This document shows positions 3,514-14,635 of a DNA stretch of 39,186 nucleotides, piece by piece. The stretch lies in contig JAHELW010000008.1 in the NCBI GenBank assembly GCA_024643985.1, positions 1 through 39,186 on the forward strand, given 5' to 3'. Made by a program: the position numbers and the translations under genes. Each line of letters opens with the position of its first letter. Position 1 is the first letter of the stretch. The DNA is from Myxococcales bacterium. GTDB lineage: Bacteria > Myxococcota_A > Polyangia > Polyangiales > Houyiibacteriaceae. Below the pieces are notes generated by a model that had not been told where the DNA came from, ran no database searches, and saw only the letters and a program-made list of their open reading frames with translations.

Positions 3514-4520
3514 CGCGCGCGACACGCCTGGTGCTCGTAACGCTTTGTGGAGCGCTGATCGCTTGCAGTAGCTCGCCCAAGAACCCGGTCGCGACGCCCC
3601 CTGCACGAGCGCTCGAAACCGAGCCCGTGGCAGCTCGGACGATCGATTGGAGCGTTTTCGACTCGACGAGCATTCGAAATCCCAACGACGGCTCTCTTCG
3701 AGGCGGTGTACCGCTGCCAGTGTCGTCGCCTGGGCTTCGATTCAACCCGAACCGGGATCCCGAGGCGCGGTACGGAACCGTCGAAGTAGTGCGGGCTCTC
3801 GTCGAGGCCGCGGCGCGGGTGCACCGGGAGCTCGGGGGACTCCCCGTCACGGTCAACGACCTGAGCCTGGAGTCTGGCGGGCCGATCCCGCATCACAAGT
3901 CGCACCAGAGTGGTCGAGACGTCGACGTGCTGTTCTACCAGCTTGGCCCGGACGGACAGCCGATCGAAAGCGTCGGCGCATTCTTCGAACCTGAAGGCCG
4001 CGGAGTCGATTTCCGCGATCTCGCGGATCCCTCGGACGACGTCCGTCTGACGATCGACGTGCCGCGAACTTGGCTCTTCCTGCAGGCGCTCATCGAGGAC
4101 GACGATGCGCAGATCCAAACCATCTTCGTCGCCGAGCACCTGAGGACTCTCTTGCTTGCCCATGCGCGGTCGAAGTCCGTCTCCGCCTCGACGATCTCAC
4201 GGTTCGAAGCAGTCACCTGTCAGCCGAGCTACCCTCACGACGACCACTTCCACTTCAGGTTCTTCTGCGCGCCGGACGACATCGAAGACGGCTGCCGCGA
4301 TTCCCCGCCGATGTATCCATGGCAGAAAACGAGGCTCGAAGCTGCGGGCGTACGACGTCTGCCGCTGGCACCCAAACGCGCGCAGGCCGCCGCGAAGATC
4401 GTCACACACGAAGAGGCCCGCGAGGCGGCAGGGCCTCTCGATGCCGAGGTCGAGCGCTGGCTGGAGTTGCGCAAAAGGTGGATCCGAAAACCGCACCCCG
4501 GACGCGAGTACTGCCCATGA
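3510..4520 (+). CDS. MepA-type penicillin-insensitive murein endopeptidase, lipoprotein
   Basis: The 336-residue product starts with a lipoprotein signal (MTRATRLVLVTLCGALIAC, lipobox LIAC), so it is probably lipid-anchored. The peptidase M74 signature is intact: SHQSGRDVDV gives H132, D137 and D139, and PHDDHFHFRF gives H243, H246 and H248, matching the zinc-site histidines and aspartate of E. coli MepA. Such enzymes cut D-Ala-mDAP cross-links in peptidoglycan. The GTG start overlaps the tetR stop, which excludes a longer frame running through the upstream gene. The stop overlaps the RNase D start (ATGA). About 70 residues after the zinc site form an unrecognised tail. A second MepA homologue is at 15286-16299. 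Confidence 0.88.
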   Translation: MTRATRLVLVTLCGALIACSSSPKNPVATPPARALETEPVAARTIDWSVFDSTSIRNPNDGSLRGGVPLPVSSPGLRFNPNRDPEARYGTVEVVRALVEAAARVHRELGGLPVTVNDLSLESGGPIPHHKSHQSGRDVDVLFYQLGPDGQPIESVGAFFEPEGRGVDFRDLADPSDDVRLTIDVPRTWLFLQALIEDDDAQIQTIFVAEHLRTLLLAHARSKSVSASTISRFEAVTCQPSYPHDDHFHFRFFCAPDDIEDGCRDSPPMYPWQKTRLEAAGVRRLPLAPKRAQAAAKIVTHEEAREAAGPLDAEVERWLELRKRWIRKPHPGREYCP

Positions 4521-7728: not shown

Positions 7729-9899
7729 GGCCCTCCGAGCTGTGCATCGAGTCGGTCGAGGAGCTCGATCGCCGCATCGGCGATCACGGTGCCGGGACCG
7801 AAGATCGCCGCGGCGCCGGCATCGCGAAGAGTCTCGTAGTCTTCCGGGGGAATCACGCCGCCAACCACGACGAGAATGTCGTCGCGCCCGAGGTCTCGCA
7901 GCGCTTGCTTGAGCTGCGGAACCAGCGTCAAATGCCCCGCCGCGAGCGAGCTCGCGCCGACGATGTGCACGTCGTTCTCGACCGCCTGTTTGGCGCTCTC
8001 TTCGGGCGTTTGGAACAGCGGGCCGATGTCCACGTCGAAGCCTAGATCCGCGAACGCGGTCGCGATGACCTTCTGCCCGCGGTCGTGACCATCCTGACCC
8101 ATCTTGGCGACCAAAATTCGGGGCCTTCGGCCGTGCTTGTCGAGGAACTCCTCGCTTCGAGCTCTCACGCGCTCGACGCCCTCCGAATCGTTTCCTACTT
8201 CGCTTCGATACACGCCTTCGATACTCCGAATCGTTGCCTGGTAGCGTCCCCACACGCGCTCGAGCGCGTCACTGATCTCACCAACGGTCGCGCGATGCCT
8301 GGCCGCGTCGATCGCAAGCTCGAGCAGATTGCCCTCACCAGTGTCCGCGCACTTCGTCAATGCCTCAAGTTTCGGTCTCAGCACCCCATCGTCACGCTCC
8401 TCGCGGAGCTCGCGAAGGCGCGCGATCTGGGCGCCACGCACGGCGCTGTTGTCGACTTTGAGAACGTCGATGTGGTCTTCCTCGTCGAGCGCATACTTGT
8501 TGATCCCGACGATGGTCTGCTGCCCCGAGTCGATGCGCGCCTGTGTGCGCGCCGCGGCTTCTTCGATGCGAAGCTTTGGAAGGCCGGCCTCGATGGCCTT
8601 CGTCATGCCGCCGAGCTCTTCGACCTCCTCGATGTGCCGCCAAGCAGCAAGCGCAAGCTCGTGGGTGAGCCGTTCGACGTAGTAGCTGCCACCCCATGGG
8701 TCGATGACCCGGGTCGTCCCGCTTTCGAGCTGGAGGTAGAGCTGCGTGTTACGCGCGATGCGCGCGCTGAAGTCCGTCGGTAACGCGATGGCCTCGTCGA
8801 GCGAGTTGGTGTGCAGGCTTTGCGTGTGCCCCTGCGTCGCGGCCATCGCCTCGATGCAGGTTCTCACGACGTTGTTGTAGACGTCTTGCGCGGTCAGGCT
8901 CCAGCCGGAAGTCTGGCTGTGTGTCCGAAGGGCCATGCTCTTCGGGTTCTTGGGGCCGAATTGGTCGATCAGCTTGGCCCAGAGAAGGCGCCCGGCCCGG
9001 AGCTTGGCGACCTCCATGAAGAAGTTGGTCCCGATTGCCCAAAAGAAGCTGATGCGCGGCGCAAAGTCGTCGATCCCGAGGCCGGCGTCCAATCCGGTTC
9101 GCACGTACTCGAGACCGTCGGCGAGCGTGTACCCCAGCTCGAGATCCTGCGTCGCCCCGGCCTCCTGCATGTGATAGCCGCTGACGCTGATGCTGTTGAA
9201 TCGCGGCATGTTCGCCGCCGTGTACTTGAAGATGTCGGCGACGATCCGCATCGAGGGCGACGGCGGGTAGATGTACGTATTCCGCACCATGAACTCTTTC
9301 AGAATGTCGTTCTGAATGGTTCCAGTGAGCTTTTCCGGAGGAACGCCCTGCTCTTCCGCGGCGACGACGTAGAGCGCGAGCACGGGAAGGACGGCCCCAT
9401 TCATCGTCATCGACACGCTCATCTGATCGAGAGGGATTCCATCGAACAGGATGCGCATGTCCTTGATCGAGTCGATGGCTACGCCGGCCATTCCAACGTC
9501 GCCCGTCACGCGCGGGTGGTCCGAGTCGTACCCACGGTGCGTCGCCAGATCAAAGGCGATGGAAAGCCCTTTTTGCCCCGCGGCGAGGTTGCGACGATAA
9601 AACGCGTTGCTCTGCTCCGCCGTCGAGAACCCGGAATACTGGCGGATCGTCCAAGGCCGCCGTACGTACATCGTGCTGTACGGGCCCCGCAAAAACGGCG
9701 GCAGGCCGGGCGCCGTGCTCAGATGATCGACCGGCGCGAGGTCCTCGGCGGTGTAGACCGGCTTCACCGCGACGCCCTCCGGCGTCTTCCATCGGCGGCT
9801 CGCCTCTTCGCCCGCGAGGGCTTTCCAATCGGCCAGGGATAATGAATCGCCGCCGACCGCGTCGAAATCGAGCTCGCTGAAATCGGGTACGCGGCTCAC
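7725..9899 (-). CDS. mutB: Methylmalonyl-CoA mutase large (catalytic) subunit
   Basis: The 724-residue product has the full mutase architecture: an N-terminal substrate-binding TIM barrel (for example [19 protein letters not shown], and [16 protein letters not shown]) and a C-terminal cobalamin-binding Rossmann domain. The B12 motif is intact ([15 protein letters not shown], with H605 the expected lower axial ligand, followed by SSLAAGH and VVVGG). The enzyme interconverts (R)-methylmalonyl-CoA and succinyl-CoA using adenosylcobalamin and pairs with the MutA subunit encoded just upstream. The GTG start at 9899 is preceded by GGAGGTGGAG and overlaps the mutA stop (GTGA). Confidence 0.95.
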
Positions 9900-11944
9900 C
9901 GCTCCACCTCCACCGAGTCGAGCACGTCCGTCATCACGCGGTGGACGTCCCCCCCGGCGAAGACGAAGTCGCTCACGCCCGCCTCGCGAAGCGCCGATGC
10001 GTCGTTCCCCGGACGGCCCGCGACGAGAACGAGCGGACAGCCTGCCTTCTTGAGCGCCGCCACGGCCGGCTCGAGCATGGTTTCGTAGTCCCTGTCGCTC
10101 CCACATACGATCGCGAGAGAAGCGGGCGCTCGTTCGAACGCTGCGCCGAGCGCGGCGGGGTCGTCGAAGCCGTCGTTGTCGTGCACTTCGATTCCGGCGG
10201 CACCGAGAAGGTTCGTCGCCCAGGTGGACCGCGCCTTGTGCGCTGGAATCGAGCCGAGGTTCGCAAGCAATGCGCTTGGCCGTTTCGCGCTTCGGTCACT
10301 GCGGTCTCGCAGTTGCTCCCACGCCTCGGCGGCGCGCCATTGCGGAATCGGCTCGACGTGAAAATCCGGCTGCCCGTGCTGAAGGACCGCGGCCACGCTG
10401 TACATGTCCGTACCCCCGACGGCCGCAGAGACGCACGCGTCGGTGACCGCGCCCGGACCACCCTCCCCGTCGTGAATCTTGCGCGCGAGTGCGATCAGGT
10501 TATCCCGATGAGCACCCACGTCGAGCTCGTCGAGGGCGGCGCGGAGCAACCGGCTCACGTCCTCGGCAGATACGGGCTTGCGCTCGAGCCGCTTTTCGCT
10601 GACGTTCGGGAACTCGCTCACGCCGACGATGGGGGTCTTTCGGCGCGCGATTGCGGCGCGGCGATCCGCGGTGACCGCCGCAATCGCGTCGACCAGAGTG
10701 CCGGCGCCGAGGGCCACGACGATGCCTCCTCGACGTTCGACGGCGCGGAGCTCCTCCCACGCTGCGCGCGCGAGCTGGTCGGTCAGCTTCTCGACGAACC
10801 AGCTGCCACCGGCTGGATCGGCCACGGCGTCCAAATGGGACTCGTCGCGAAGCACGACCTGCGTGTTGCGGGCGACGCGCTGCGCGAGCTCGTCCGGCGG
10901 CCCTGCGACGCAATCAAACGGCAGCGTCGCGACGCTCTGCGACCCGCCGAGGACCGCGGCCGTGCATTCTGCGGTCACCCTGAGCATGTTGACCCAGGGG
11001 TCTCGCTCCGTCTTCGTGAAGCGCGACGTCCGAGCGTGAATGCGCATCTCCGCCGCGTTCGGCTCGCCCCCCGAGGCGGTGATCACTTTCGACCAAAGCA
11101 GGCGCGCCGCTCGGAGCTTCGCGATTTGGGTGAAGAAGTCCCCCGACACCGAGTAGCTGAAAGCGATTCGACGCGCAGCGGATTCGATGCGCAACCCCGC
11201 ATCGGTGAGCTGACGCAGATACTCGATACCGGTGGCAATGGTGTAGGCGAGCTCCTGGACGGTGCTCGCGCCGCCGCCGTCGTAGGGTTCGCTCGACACG
11301 TCGACCGCGTGTAGACCGGGTGCGTTCTCGGTGCACCACGCTGCCAGGTCGCTGAGCTCTGCCAGCCGCGATCGAAGCCCTCCTTGAATTCGGCCCTCTC
11401 CGGCGAGCAGGCCGATCGGGTCGAAGGCAAAGCCACCACGAAGCGTCTCGTACGACACGCCTCTTCGGCGCGCTAGCGCCAGAAAGCCCGCCGCGGAGGC
11501 AAGGGTATCCGAGCCTCCGTCGATGCAAACCGAGGTGGTCGACAGGTCGACCCCCCCGAGAAGCTCGTCGAAATCTTCCAGCGTGAGCACGCGGCAACCG
11601 CGACGCGGTCCCATGCGCAGATACACGGCGTCTACACCGCGCGAGAGGTCCCGGCCGATCTGCTGCTTGCAAACCTCCAGCCTCGGGTCGTCGTACTCCT
11701 GGCGGATGACCCAGCCGCCGGTCGGGGCAGCGCCGCGAACGAATGGGTAGACGCCGGGGAGGCCGTTCTGGCGGTCGGCTTCGACGTCTTCCGCGGTGTA
11801 GAGAGGCTCGAGCTCGAGCTCGCCTGGCGCTCGCGAACGGAGGCGATCGAACGATGCGCCCTTCAAGTCAGCCTCGACCTTGGCCAACCATTCAGCTTTG
11901 CTCACGGGCGGGAACGCATTGAGTCGCTCGGTCGTGTCGGACAC
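9896..11944 (-). CDS. mutA: Methylmalonyl-CoA mutase small subunit
   Basis: The 682-residue product aligns in plan with MutB but is diverged: an N-terminal extension ([16 protein letters not shown]), a barrel with [12 protein letters not shown] in place of the catalytic [11 protein letters not shown], and a C-terminal Rossmann-like domain. The cobalamin motif DxHxxG is absent; the matching segment is [20 protein letters not shown]. This is what is expected of the non-catalytic subunit of the heterodimeric enzyme. The GTG start at 11944 has no Shine-Dalgarno sequence. It is the first gene of the mutA-mutB-meaB operon. No methylmalonyl-CoA epimerase or propionyl-CoA carboxylase gene is in the window. 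Confidence 0.92.
9902..9911 (-). promoter_or_regulatory. Strong ribosome-binding site of mutB inside the end of mutA
   Basis: GGAGGTGGAG on the minus strand ends two bases before the GTG at 9899, with the GGAGG core seven bases away. It fixes the mutB start and is one of the strongest Shine-Dalgarno sequences in the window, consistent with high output of the catalytic subunit from within the coupled operon. Confidence 0.6.
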
Positions 11945-11953
11945 AGCGAAAGC

Positions 11954-11982
11954 TAGATAGAACAGAGCGATTGGCGCCGCAA
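11954..11982 (-). promoter_or_regulatory. Putative promoter of the mutA-mutB-meaB operon
   Basis: On the minus strand TTGCGG (11982-11977) and TATCTA (11959-11954) are separated by 17 bases, and the GTG of mutA lies nine bases after the second box. Each box is only a half match to the consensus. The leader would be at most a few bases long, in line with the lack of a Shine-Dalgarno sequence. Confidence 0.3.
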
Positions 11983-11991
11983 CGCGCGCCT

Positions 11992-14565
11992 TCAGGGTAG
12001 GCGCGGATTGTCCAAGGACCCTTCACGCTCGCCCTGCCAGAACTCCTCGACGGGCCCCACGCGGTCGTGCGTCTCGATGTACGTTTCATCGACGTCCACG
12101 AAGACGTAACCCACGCCTTTTTCGCGGCCGAGACGGCTCTTGACCCTCGCGAGGTCGACGACGCTCAAACCCGAAGACACCACCACGACGACACGATGCG
12201 CAAGCCGCGCAGCTCTTCGCAGCACCGGTCCAGTGAGCGGGCCGTTCCATGCGAGCGCCACGCCCCGCACGTCGTCAGGCGTGGTCGACACCGGCCTCGA
12301 AGGCGGCGCGGACGGGCGAACCTGGGTCACGTCCTCCCCCTCGTCCCCGAGAAGCCGAACGGCTGCCCGCATCACCGCGTTCGACGCGCTCGAACGCTGC
12401 GGCTCTTCGCCGAGATCGATCGAAGGGCCCACAAGCGAAGAGGTCTTGTCCCTACCGACCGGTACGGGCCTCGTCAGAGGAACCGCATCCTCTGAGGCTC
12501 CCGCCGAAGCACTCGTTGGAGCCGTGTCTCCGGCACTGACGTCCGGATGCACGGGCACGATCATCCGGACCGTCGCCCTTGCCCGGCGCTTTCTCTGGAA
12601 CGGCTGCATCCCTCCGGAGGAAGACGCGGACTTCGAGGTCGGTCTCGCGGGAGGCCCAGGCGCATCGGCGATGGGCTCCGCATGGATCTGAATGGGCTCG
12701 GCGGGATCGGCCGCCGGCAGCCCGATCACGGTCTTCTTGCGGGGAGGCCTCGAGCTCGACGGGCCGGTCGGCTCGGGCTTCGCGGGTGTCCTCTCCACGG
12801 CAGTCGGTGCGCTCGGGCTCGTCGGCGGCGGCACGAAGCCCTGCATCGTCGGTTTGTGTGGAACGGCGCGCCCGTGAGCGACGGAAGGAATGCCCTCGGA
12901 CGAAAGCCGCCGTCGCCTTGGAGCGGGTGCGGGAGTCACGATCGGGGGGGACTCGCCGCTCGGCGCGGGTGTCACGAATGGCGACGAATCCGGCCCGCGG
13001 TCGCCCACATCGAGAATCGCTGCTGCGAGCCATGGAGCTTCAGCGAGGCGCATTGCAAAGGAGCACGCGAGGTCGCGCTCTTTCTCGGTGGCGGGAACGA
13101 CCAGTGTGCGTCCCGCACCGTACACGGCTTGGTCTTCGAGCTCGTCGACGAACGCGTCGAGGGCGTCCGACTCTCGAGGCCAGTTGCTCGTCCCGAGCAC
13201 GGGTCCGTTGCCCCACCAGGCAACCTCCCGGGGCGCGACGACTTCGAGCGCCTTCAATGCACGCCAGATCAGGATGCCTGCATGGACGAGAAGCACCAGA
13301 ACCGGGAAAAGAACGAGCAGCATGACCAGAGGCTTCGAGCGCTCCGCCTCCTCCGACAGGGCGGGCGTCGACAGCACCCGAAAGCCGGTACCCGGCTGGA
13401 AACTCGTGTCGTGTAGCATGGCCCCGCGTGCGGCGAGCTCGTCGTACCTCGCGATCGCCGCGTCGAGCTCTCCGATGACCTGACGCGCTTCCCCCTCTTC
13501 AGGGGCGAGCGTGTCCATCTGCCGCTCCACGTCCGTGAGAAGGACCCGCAGCGCGGATTCGCGCTCCCCCGCCGCTGCAAGCGCGGCACGCGCGGTCGCC
13601 AGCTGCCTGTCAACATCCGCGCGGGCGGGATTCGCTGTCAGCGTCTGCTCGCCCACCTCGACTGGGAGTCCGCTCTTTTGCGCCTGAAGGCTCGCGACGC
13701 GCTGCTTCAACGCTTGCACCCTCGGATGATGCTCGCTCAGCGTCGCGCGCGCCTCCGCCAGCTCCGCGCGGGCTCTGGCCAGCGGACCTTCGACGGGAGA
13801 GCCCTTTCTCGCGCTCGCCAAGATTTGGGCGGGAAGCTCTTGCTGGGCTTGGTCGAGCTCCGCAACCAGCGCGCGCTGCGCCGCGATCTCGACGGCCGCC
13901 TCGTCCAACTTCGTTCGAAGATCGGACGCACGCTCCAAGAGCTGCGCCTTCTCGTCGAGAAGATCCGGCTTGCCGCTCTTCTCGGCGAACGCGTTGAACG
14001 CCTCCTGCGCAGCGTCACGCCGCTGTTCGGCGCGCGCAAGCGCGCGATCGTTCTCGACGATCAGTTGCCCGAGCTTCTGGGCGTTGAAGCTCACCTGGTG
14101 CGAGAGGAACACCTCGAGCAACGTCTGCGCAAGAAGCTGTGCGTCCTCGGGCGTGTCGGCGCGCGCCGTGAGCCGTAGCGACTCCCTGGTTTCCTTCGAC
14201 GCACGCACCCGGGTCGCTAGAGCGTCCAGCGAGACGTCCCAACCGAGCCGCTCGCGGACTTCACGCAAGCGGCTTGGCGCCACCGCGGACTGAACGAAAG
14301 CACGAGCATCCGTCGAAATCCGCTCGTCGGGCCTCCGCGGCAGCGGTGTCCCCTCGTACAGCAGCACTGCGGCCGACTCATACGTCTTCGGAACGAACAG
14401 CGAGGCGACCAGCGAGACCGCGGCGGCGACGAGAAACGCGCGCAGGAGGCGGCTTCGATGCGGCGCGAGAATCCTCAAAACTCGCCGCGGCTCCACGGGA
14501 AGCCCCGGACGCCCGCGCTTTGCGCCGAGCTCTTCGGCTCCGGTGTCGTATATCGCGTCGTCCAA
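11992..14565 (-). CDS. Wzz/GumC-like polysaccharide co-polymerase with degenerate split cytoplasmic domain
   Basis: About 857 residues. A Wzz-type layout is clear: first membrane segment about 41-58, a periplasmic region rich in coiled coil (about 150-380, with LDEKAQLLERASDLRTKLDE), and a second membrane segment about 410-436 followed by a cytoplasmic part. In GumC/BY-kinase relatives that part holds a P-loop kinase. Here the expected strand and loop read RTLVVPATEKERDLACSF (about 485-502) with no GKS/T, then AAILDVGD. Next comes about 230 residues of Pro/Ser/Thr/Arg-rich, probably disordered sequence (about 525-760), then a closing segment HRVVVVVSSGLSVVDLARVK that resembles the late strands of the fold. 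I prefer the TTG at 14565 because GAGGA lies six bases before it; a TTG at 14580 is possible. No other polysaccharide gene is nearby. The chain-length role is inferred. Confidence 0.72.
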   Translation of the reverse strand: MDDAIYDTGAEELGAKRGRPGLPVEPRRVLRILAPHRSRLLRAFLVAAAVSLVASLFVPKTYESAAVLLYEGTPLPRRPDERISTDARAFVQSAVAPSRLREVRERLGWDVSLDALATRVRASKETRESLRLTARADTPEDAQLLAQTLLEVFLSHQVSFNAQKLGQLIVENDRALARAEQRRDAAQEAFNAFAEKSGKPDLLDEKAQLLERASDLRTKLDEAAVEIAAQRALVAELDQAQQELPAQILASARKGSPVEGPLARARAELAEARATLSEHHPRVQALKQRVASLQAQKSGLPVEVGEQTLTANPARADVDRQLATARAALAAAGERESALRVLLTDVERQMDTLAPEEGEARQVIGELDAAIARYDELAARGAMLHDTSFQPGTGFRVLSTPALSEEAERSKPLVMLLVLFPVLVLLVHAGILIWRALKALEVVAPREVAWWGNGPVLGTSNWPRESDALDAFVDELEDQAVYGAGRTLVVPATEKERDLACSFAMRLAEAPWLAAAILDVGDRGPDSSPFVTPAPSGESPPIVTPAPAPRRRRLSSEGIPSVAHGRAVPHKPTMQGFVPPPTSPSAPTAVERTPAKPEPTGPSSSRPPRKKTVIGLPAADPAEPIQIHAEPIADAPGPPARPTSKSASSSGGMQPFQRKRRARATVRMIVPVHPDVSAGDTAPTSASAGASEDAVPLTRPVPVGRDKTSSLVGPSIDLGEEPQRSSASNAVMRAAVRLLGDEGEDVTQVRPSAPPSRPVSTTPDDVRGVALAWNGPLTGPVLRRAARLAHRVVVVVSSGLSVVDLARVKSRLGREKGVGYVFVDVDETYIETHDRVGPVEEFWQGEREGSLDNPRLP

Positions 14566-14635
14566 GCCTCTTCCTCGCAACGGAGATCATGGCGGGGGAG
14601 CCCTCCCCGGGGCAAGTCGACATCGCACCCGAGAC

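Follow-up and report, generated by a model that had tools for sequence, protein, structure and literature searches.

Co-polymerases that contain or work with a BY-pseudokinase have already been described, both as fused and as separate proteins, and include EcpK/EpsV, HfsAB and SMc01795. In Myxococcus xanthus, EcpK is proposed to guide the assembly of EpsV by binding rather than by tyrosine phosphorylation, and earlier sequence work mentioned in the same source had pointed to forms in which the pseudokinase is fused to a PCP-2 protein, SMc01795 from Sinorhizobium meliloti being an example (PMC12004946). The EcpK/EpsV system raises the open question of how a co-polymerase ring cycles without tyrosine phosphorylation.

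The protein described here is encoded in a 39,186-nucleotide stretch of DNA (the window) belonging to a 3.5 Mb draft genome that is 80.6% complete with 5% contamination. As a whole, it is probably best explained as an orphan, PCP-2-like polysaccharide co-polymerase with a fused BY-pseudokinase. This co-polymerase reading is supported by the PCP build, the predicted fold, the presence of short paralogues in export loci and the separate clade formed by the long form. In a narrow literature search, no earlier description of an orphan clade with a motif-bearing insert was found.

The gene and its membrane-bound part

The open reading frame on the minus strand covers 11992-14580 (862 codons) and contains TTG start codons at 14580 and 14565. 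The start at 14565, giving a protein of 857 residues, is preferred because it yields an LDDA beginning that is common to the nearest orthologue and because GAGGAAGAGG lies just upstream of it in the window; the start at 14580 is not shared with that orthologue. Orthologues carrying the same insert, at 52-64% identity, are encoded in a dozen related genomes, and the gene is for this reason considered real rather than a chance reading frame. A search of the genome collection with the window protein returned thirteen loci, eleven of them from close relatives (52-63% identity), and 36 of the 57 related genomes searched hold a match. The Wzz/GumC-like protein that the earlier note had placed at 11992-14565 is thus borne out, including its start. 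The gene and its first three parts, with residue numbers following the 862-codon frame, are:

11992..14565, minus strand: full coding sequence of the orphan PCP-2-like protein with a fused BY-pseudokinase-like domain (857 residues; orthologues)
14401..14490, minus strand: first transmembrane helix, residues 31-60 (from the model of the whole chain)
13336..14400, minus strand: periplasmic Wzz/Wzc-type part with long coiled coils, residues 61-415 (TIGR03007, family profile, Foldseek)
13255..13335, minus strand: second transmembrane helix, residues 416-442 (from the model of the whole chain)

Single-protein searches of Pfam, PDB sequences and NCBIfam return little besides TIGR03007, the XrtA/PEP-CTERM chain-length determinant, and coiled-coil noise. 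TIGR03007 aligns with residues 123-425 (E 4.6e-18), and its 64.7 bits lie far under the curated cut-off of 278.85, which places the protein outside that family proper. The Pfam Wzz domain is recognised in 14 of the 23 family members and not in the window protein. General family libraries thus hardly pick up this co-polymerase family of the order and its fused pseudokinase. Among solved structures, the family profile finds PslE chains (3.2e-12) and Wzc chains (1e-7 to 1e-6). For the model of the whole protein (mean pLDDT 72.4), Wzc is the top Foldseek match (E 3.7e-11), followed by WzzE and KpsE, and Wzc is also its best match in VIA-align, with a high rmsd that may be read as a different placement of the domains in the model. 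Profiles and model together give the PCP-2 build, with two transmembrane helices around a mostly helical periplasmic domain of the Wzz/Wzc type; the membrane and coiled-coil parts of a co-polymerase, suggested earlier from the letters of the sequence, are confirmed by the same lines of evidence.

The cytoplasmic domain and its insert

Behind the second membrane helix, the chain continues into two ordered segments separated by a long disordered stretch:

13009..13254, minus strand: first half of the BY-kinase-like fold, residues 443-524, with the linker EVAWWGNGPVLGTS, a helix, the strand RTLVVP, a helix and the strand AAILDV (pLDDT about 90 except for short dips)
13066..13113, minus strand: place of the lost P-loop, RTLVVPATEKERDLA, where a canonical BY-kinase of the same genome has SMLLTSSMPAEGKSTTA (alignment; no GK[ST])
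12268..13008, minus strand: disordered Pro/Ser/Arg-rich insert, residues 525-771 of the 862-codon frame, or about 520-767 of 857 (pLDDT, composition)
12715..12738, minus strand: conserved basic-Thr block KKTVIGLP in the insert (conservation)
12559..12594, minus strand: conserved insert block RKRRARATVRMI (conservation)
12343..12396, minus strand: short predicted helix in the insert, NAVMRAAVRLLGD, residues 729-744 (model; recurs in another family, L051)
12019..12267, minus strand: second half of the BY-kinase-like fold, residues 772-854, with DRVGPVEEFW at its end (pLDDT mostly 91-97)

A model of the cytoplasmic fragment, built from 37 relatives, has a pLDDT of about 90-97 for the greater part of each half; in the insert the values are 36-60. 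In VIA-align, this fragment matches thirteen BY-kinase entries (Wzc, CapAB and BceF) with Z scores of 10.5-12.4 over 169-182 residues and an rmsd of 3.1-4.1, while the next, unrelated entry, Clp1, has a Z score of 7.0. The joined flanks are thus predicted to form one Rossmann-like fold of the BY-kinase type, the outcome that the earlier note had asked to see checked. Foldseek with the fragment alone gives nothing significant, probably because the disordered insert dominates the comparison, and it was VIA-align that resolved the fold. Sequence profiles give another picture. HHalign finds no detectable homology (probability 0.2%) between the cytoplasmic domain and the canonical BY-kinases of these genomes, in a comparison whose kinase alignment consists of two sequences only, and an hmmsearch of the PDB with the cytoplasmic domain of the short paralogues finds no kinase. 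Of the kinase-like domain claimed before, the predicted fold stands, while these profile comparisons show no sign of a kinship in sequence; the pseudokinase reading therefore rests on the predicted fold and on the position of the domain behind the PCP part.

The catalytic apparatus of active BY-kinases of the PCP-2a, Wzc type is missing from this protein. The Walker A signature GK[ST] is absent from all 857 residues, which settles the search for a P-loop elsewhere in the chain, and neither Walker A' nor the Walker B pattern is found. An alignment by eye sets RTLVVPATEKE, followed by a three-position gap and RDLACSFAMRLAEAPWLAAAILDVGD, against KSMLLTSSMPAEGKSTTAVCLARLMALSGKKVLLMDADLR of a canonical BY-kinase of the same genome (L199); the window protein has a shorter P-loop that lacks the lysine, in line with the loss of the Walker A lysine claimed at the outset. 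The P-loop is lost across the whole family, in which R, G, D and FW columns of the second half are invariant. The Tyr-rich C-terminal tail is absent as well, with only three tyrosines in the 422-residue cytoplasmic part (at 482, 820 and 829). BY-kinases carry the ring motif EX2RX2R on a helix; this motif is not visible in the window protein, where the corresponding helix reads SDALDAFVDELED, a point against the proposed explanation. A predicted BY-kinase fold that has lost its catalytic motifs and tyrosine tail matches what defines BY-pseudokinases of the EcpK and HfsB type.

The insert, expected at about 230 residues and found to be about 245, lies between the strands equivalent to Walker A' and Walker B. 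It consists of 18% Pro, 12% Ser, 12% Ala and 9% Arg, has a net charge of +7, and its pLDDT is mostly below 50, with the exception of the short helix at 729-744; in the two flanks it is for the most part close to 90 or higher. The Pro/Ser/Arg-rich stretch splitting the domain is in this way corroborated.

An alternative explanation is that the protein is an ordinary co-polymerase paralogue working like the short ones, with an insert that arose by neutral, low-complexity growth of a tolerated loop and does nothing specific. This is unlikely, although it deserves serious attention: over nine orthologues of the genus, the insert has 18% invariant positions and an average conservation of 0.64, against 0.90 in the first flank and 0.88 in the second. 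Neutral growth is harder to reconcile with the five blocks within the insert that are strongly conserved in the genus, namely RRRLSSE, SSRPPRKKTV, RKRRARATVRMI, EDAVPLTRPVPV and AVMRAAVRLLGD. In a comparison of 12-residue windows over the whole insert, with control linkers and shuffles, the helix block AVMRAAVRLLGD recurs in the L051 lineage of another family as AVLMLAMRILGD with a z of 6.8 and none of 300 shuffles as good, whereas the same block reaches a z of at most 3.7 in the control linkers. A match of the RATVR block in L062 (z 4.3) was discarded, being no better than the best control windows.

The conserved short blocks lend indirect support to the suggestion that the insert may be a tether for a partner or for phosphorylation. 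One of them, KKTVIGLP, is similar to two stretches, KTMLGIP and KRTVMGMP, of a zinc-ribbon protein of the same genome that has 209 residues and a C-terminal hydrophobic anchor. This zinc-ribbon protein of about 200 residues (L137, on contig C181 of the same genome, near 3779-3798; orthologues L114, L118, L120, L122, L124, L127-L129 and L134) has a disordered-looking middle and carries one or two copies of K-T-hydrophobic-hydrophobic-G-hydrophobic-P, a motif like the one in the insert. A DNA pattern for KT-hyd-hyd-G-hyd-[PA] occurs at 38 places in 19 genomes of the genus against 3 in the reversed control, with several to many of these places outside plausible genes and an order-wide excess of only about twofold, so a genome-wide motif would be a lead only.

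The family and its genomic neighbourhoods

Members of the family (E at most 1e-40) are found in 55 of the 183 genomes of the order. The short paralogues, of about 620-700 residues, are mostly encoded beside OPX (Poly_export/SLBB) genes, a Bac_transf initiating transferase (PGT) or both, and it is mainly for this adjacency that the family is called one of co-polymerases; some of these loci also hold a Wzx flippase and a Wzy-like protein. In four loci (L050, L056, L112 and L113), the OPX gene adjoins one for a protein of about 1540 residues with formyltransferase, AMP-binding, luciferase-like and carrier parts, which suggests that an NRPS-like enzyme has been linked to a polysaccharide locus.

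In the tree, the window protein groups apart from the short forms, in a clade of 16 rows (UFB 96 / aLRT 95) that comprises its own genus, one locus from another genus of the same taxonomic family (G022) and three loci from a genus belonging to a different family. That the long form makes up a clade of its own speaks against the neutral growth of the insert, while two facts fit such growth: every family member has some Pro-rich linker at that position, and in one of the three loci from the other family, L096, which is related to the g22 lineage, the insert is much shorter. In G013 (L027), the long-form gene is followed without a break by a stretch of unknown bases and, after it, by unrelated sequence, a copy broken by assembly or masking.

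PCP-2 co-polymerases are usually encoded together with Wzx, Wzy, OPX and PGT genes, as an association rather than a strict definition. Most short paralogues show it; the window copy and its orthologues in the genus do not. No glycosyltransferase, Wzx, Wzy or OPX gene occurs among the window genes scanned, and no clade member was found in a polysaccharide cluster in the neighbourhoods examined. The orphan position noticed at first reading accordingly holds for the window and for the genus orthologues.

Parts of a polysaccharide pathway are nevertheless present elsewhere in the genome, since contigs C74 and C259 carry OPX genes and contigs C139 and C20 encode canonical BY-kinases. Patterns of presence and absence did not discriminate among the OPX loci as partners of the orphan. 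On C74 (L195), as on C29 of genome G003 (L201), an OPX-4PPT-FemAB-CNNM block is kept and the usual neighbouring transferase and short co-polymerase are missing from that place. On C139, a plus-strand frame (L063:6452-9037) encodes a canonical Wzc beginning with Walker A (EGKTT) but turns into an FG-GAP repeat protein towards the end of the contig; it is probably an assembly chimera rather than a real fusion. A further conserved polysaccharide export locus (L196, L197 and L202) encodes an OPX protein of about 202 residues and a 443-residue protein resembling an outer-membrane beta-barrel. No gene for a co-polymerase was recognised in the part of this locus that was read, which makes it a possible client of an orphan co-polymerase.

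Several genomes have the long form and no detected short form. Among them is G005, rated 100% complete, with neither a PF02397 initiating transferase nor a short paralogue detected. This persistence would suit a protein that no longer acts on polysaccharide and has become a membrane scaffold for another task, for example cell-wall remodelling with the M74 murein endopeptidase and NlpC/P60 proteins, whose genes are conserved neighbours. Such a change of task is improbable: an OPX locus and a canonical Wzc are retained in G005, and the M74 and NlpC/P60 genes are transcribed divergently and belong to the general synteny of the genus.

Downstream of the gene lie a spacer and a mutase gene:

11945..11991, minus strand: conserved promoter-like spacer between the co-polymerase gene and mutA (sequence comparison)
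9896..11944, minus strand: downstream neighbour, methylmalonyl-CoA mutase small subunit (mutA), given for context only (PF01642; conserved neighbour)

At every locus of the genus that reaches far enough, the co-polymerase gene lies 45-63 bp upstream of mutA-mutB in the same direction, usually with meaB after them, and in G022, which belongs to another genus, a mutase subunit and meaB are again near the long-form copy. This arrangement could be taken for an operon pair, with the insert bringing the mutase or a regulator to the membrane. Such a functional tie is very improbable, as the genus neighbourhood is syntenic over about 20 kb and the adjacency therefore counts only once; moreover, meaB does not adjoin mutB in the window, and the g22 members of the clade adjoin other genes. 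Also against the tie, the gap before mutA is filled by a conserved element, TTGCGGC-N2-CAATC...TCTAT[CT]TAGC, which from its letters looks like a promoter for mutA and is possibly a regulator site. The element is found in the corresponding gap of L002-L008 and L012 as well, and is partly palindromic in some relatives.

Proposed working and comparison with known systems

If the protein is indeed an orphan co-polymerase with a fused pseudokinase, its dead kinase domains would, in the manner proposed for EcpK/EpsV, need neither ATP nor tyrosine phosphorylation to serve as a ring-forming scaffold beneath the membrane, and the insert loops would hang from this ring as flexible arms. The motifs on the arms, basic-Thr blocks and one helix, may recruit a cytoplasmic partner or take Ser/Thr phosphorylation in place of the tyrosine switch, and the polysaccharide pathway served would be encoded elsewhere in the genome. 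There are hints of a switch that works by docking rather than by self-phosphorylation. A bolder and doubtful version makes the long-insert clade a dedicated co-polymerase whose assembly switch is no longer tyrosine autophosphorylation; instead, Ser/Thr kinases and a motif reader would act on the ring arms of about 245 residues, through a short Thr motif common to other membrane-anchored proteins of the same bacteria. With a dead kinase fused to the co-polymerase and a conserved disordered arm between the strands equivalent to Walker A' and B, the clade would allow the switch to be sought in one place.

The overall build of the protein is that of Wzc from E. coli, a PCP-2a tyrosine autokinase and the best match of the full-length model, which has Walker A, A' and B and a Tyr-rich tail where the window protein has none. 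Among solved structures, PslE from Pseudomonas aeruginosa (PDB 9v75, 9v6l) is matched best by the sequence profile of the periplasmic part, over that part and the second membrane helix only.

EcpK is comparable in the state of its kinase domain, a BY-kinase fold without Walker motifs or Tyr tail that works with a PCP-2 protein, EpsV, as a proposed phosphorylation-independent scaffold, and M. xanthus belongs to the same broad bacterial group as the organism of the window (PMC12004946). By description, what sets the two apart is that EcpK is a separate protein, whereas the pseudokinase of the window is fused to its co-polymerase and split by about 245 disordered residues. SMc01795 of S. meliloti shares the joining of co-polymerase and BY-pseudokinase in one chain; a long insert in fused forms of this type is not mentioned in the available parts of PMC12004946, a difference drawn from description only.

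The short Polyangia paralogues (e.g. L045, L048 and L056) have the same domain order, the same lost P-loop and the same DRxGxVxxFW ending. Their linker is about 50-90 residues long and their genes are sited with OPX and/or PGT genes, whereas the window protein has an insert of about 245 residues and an orphan gene.
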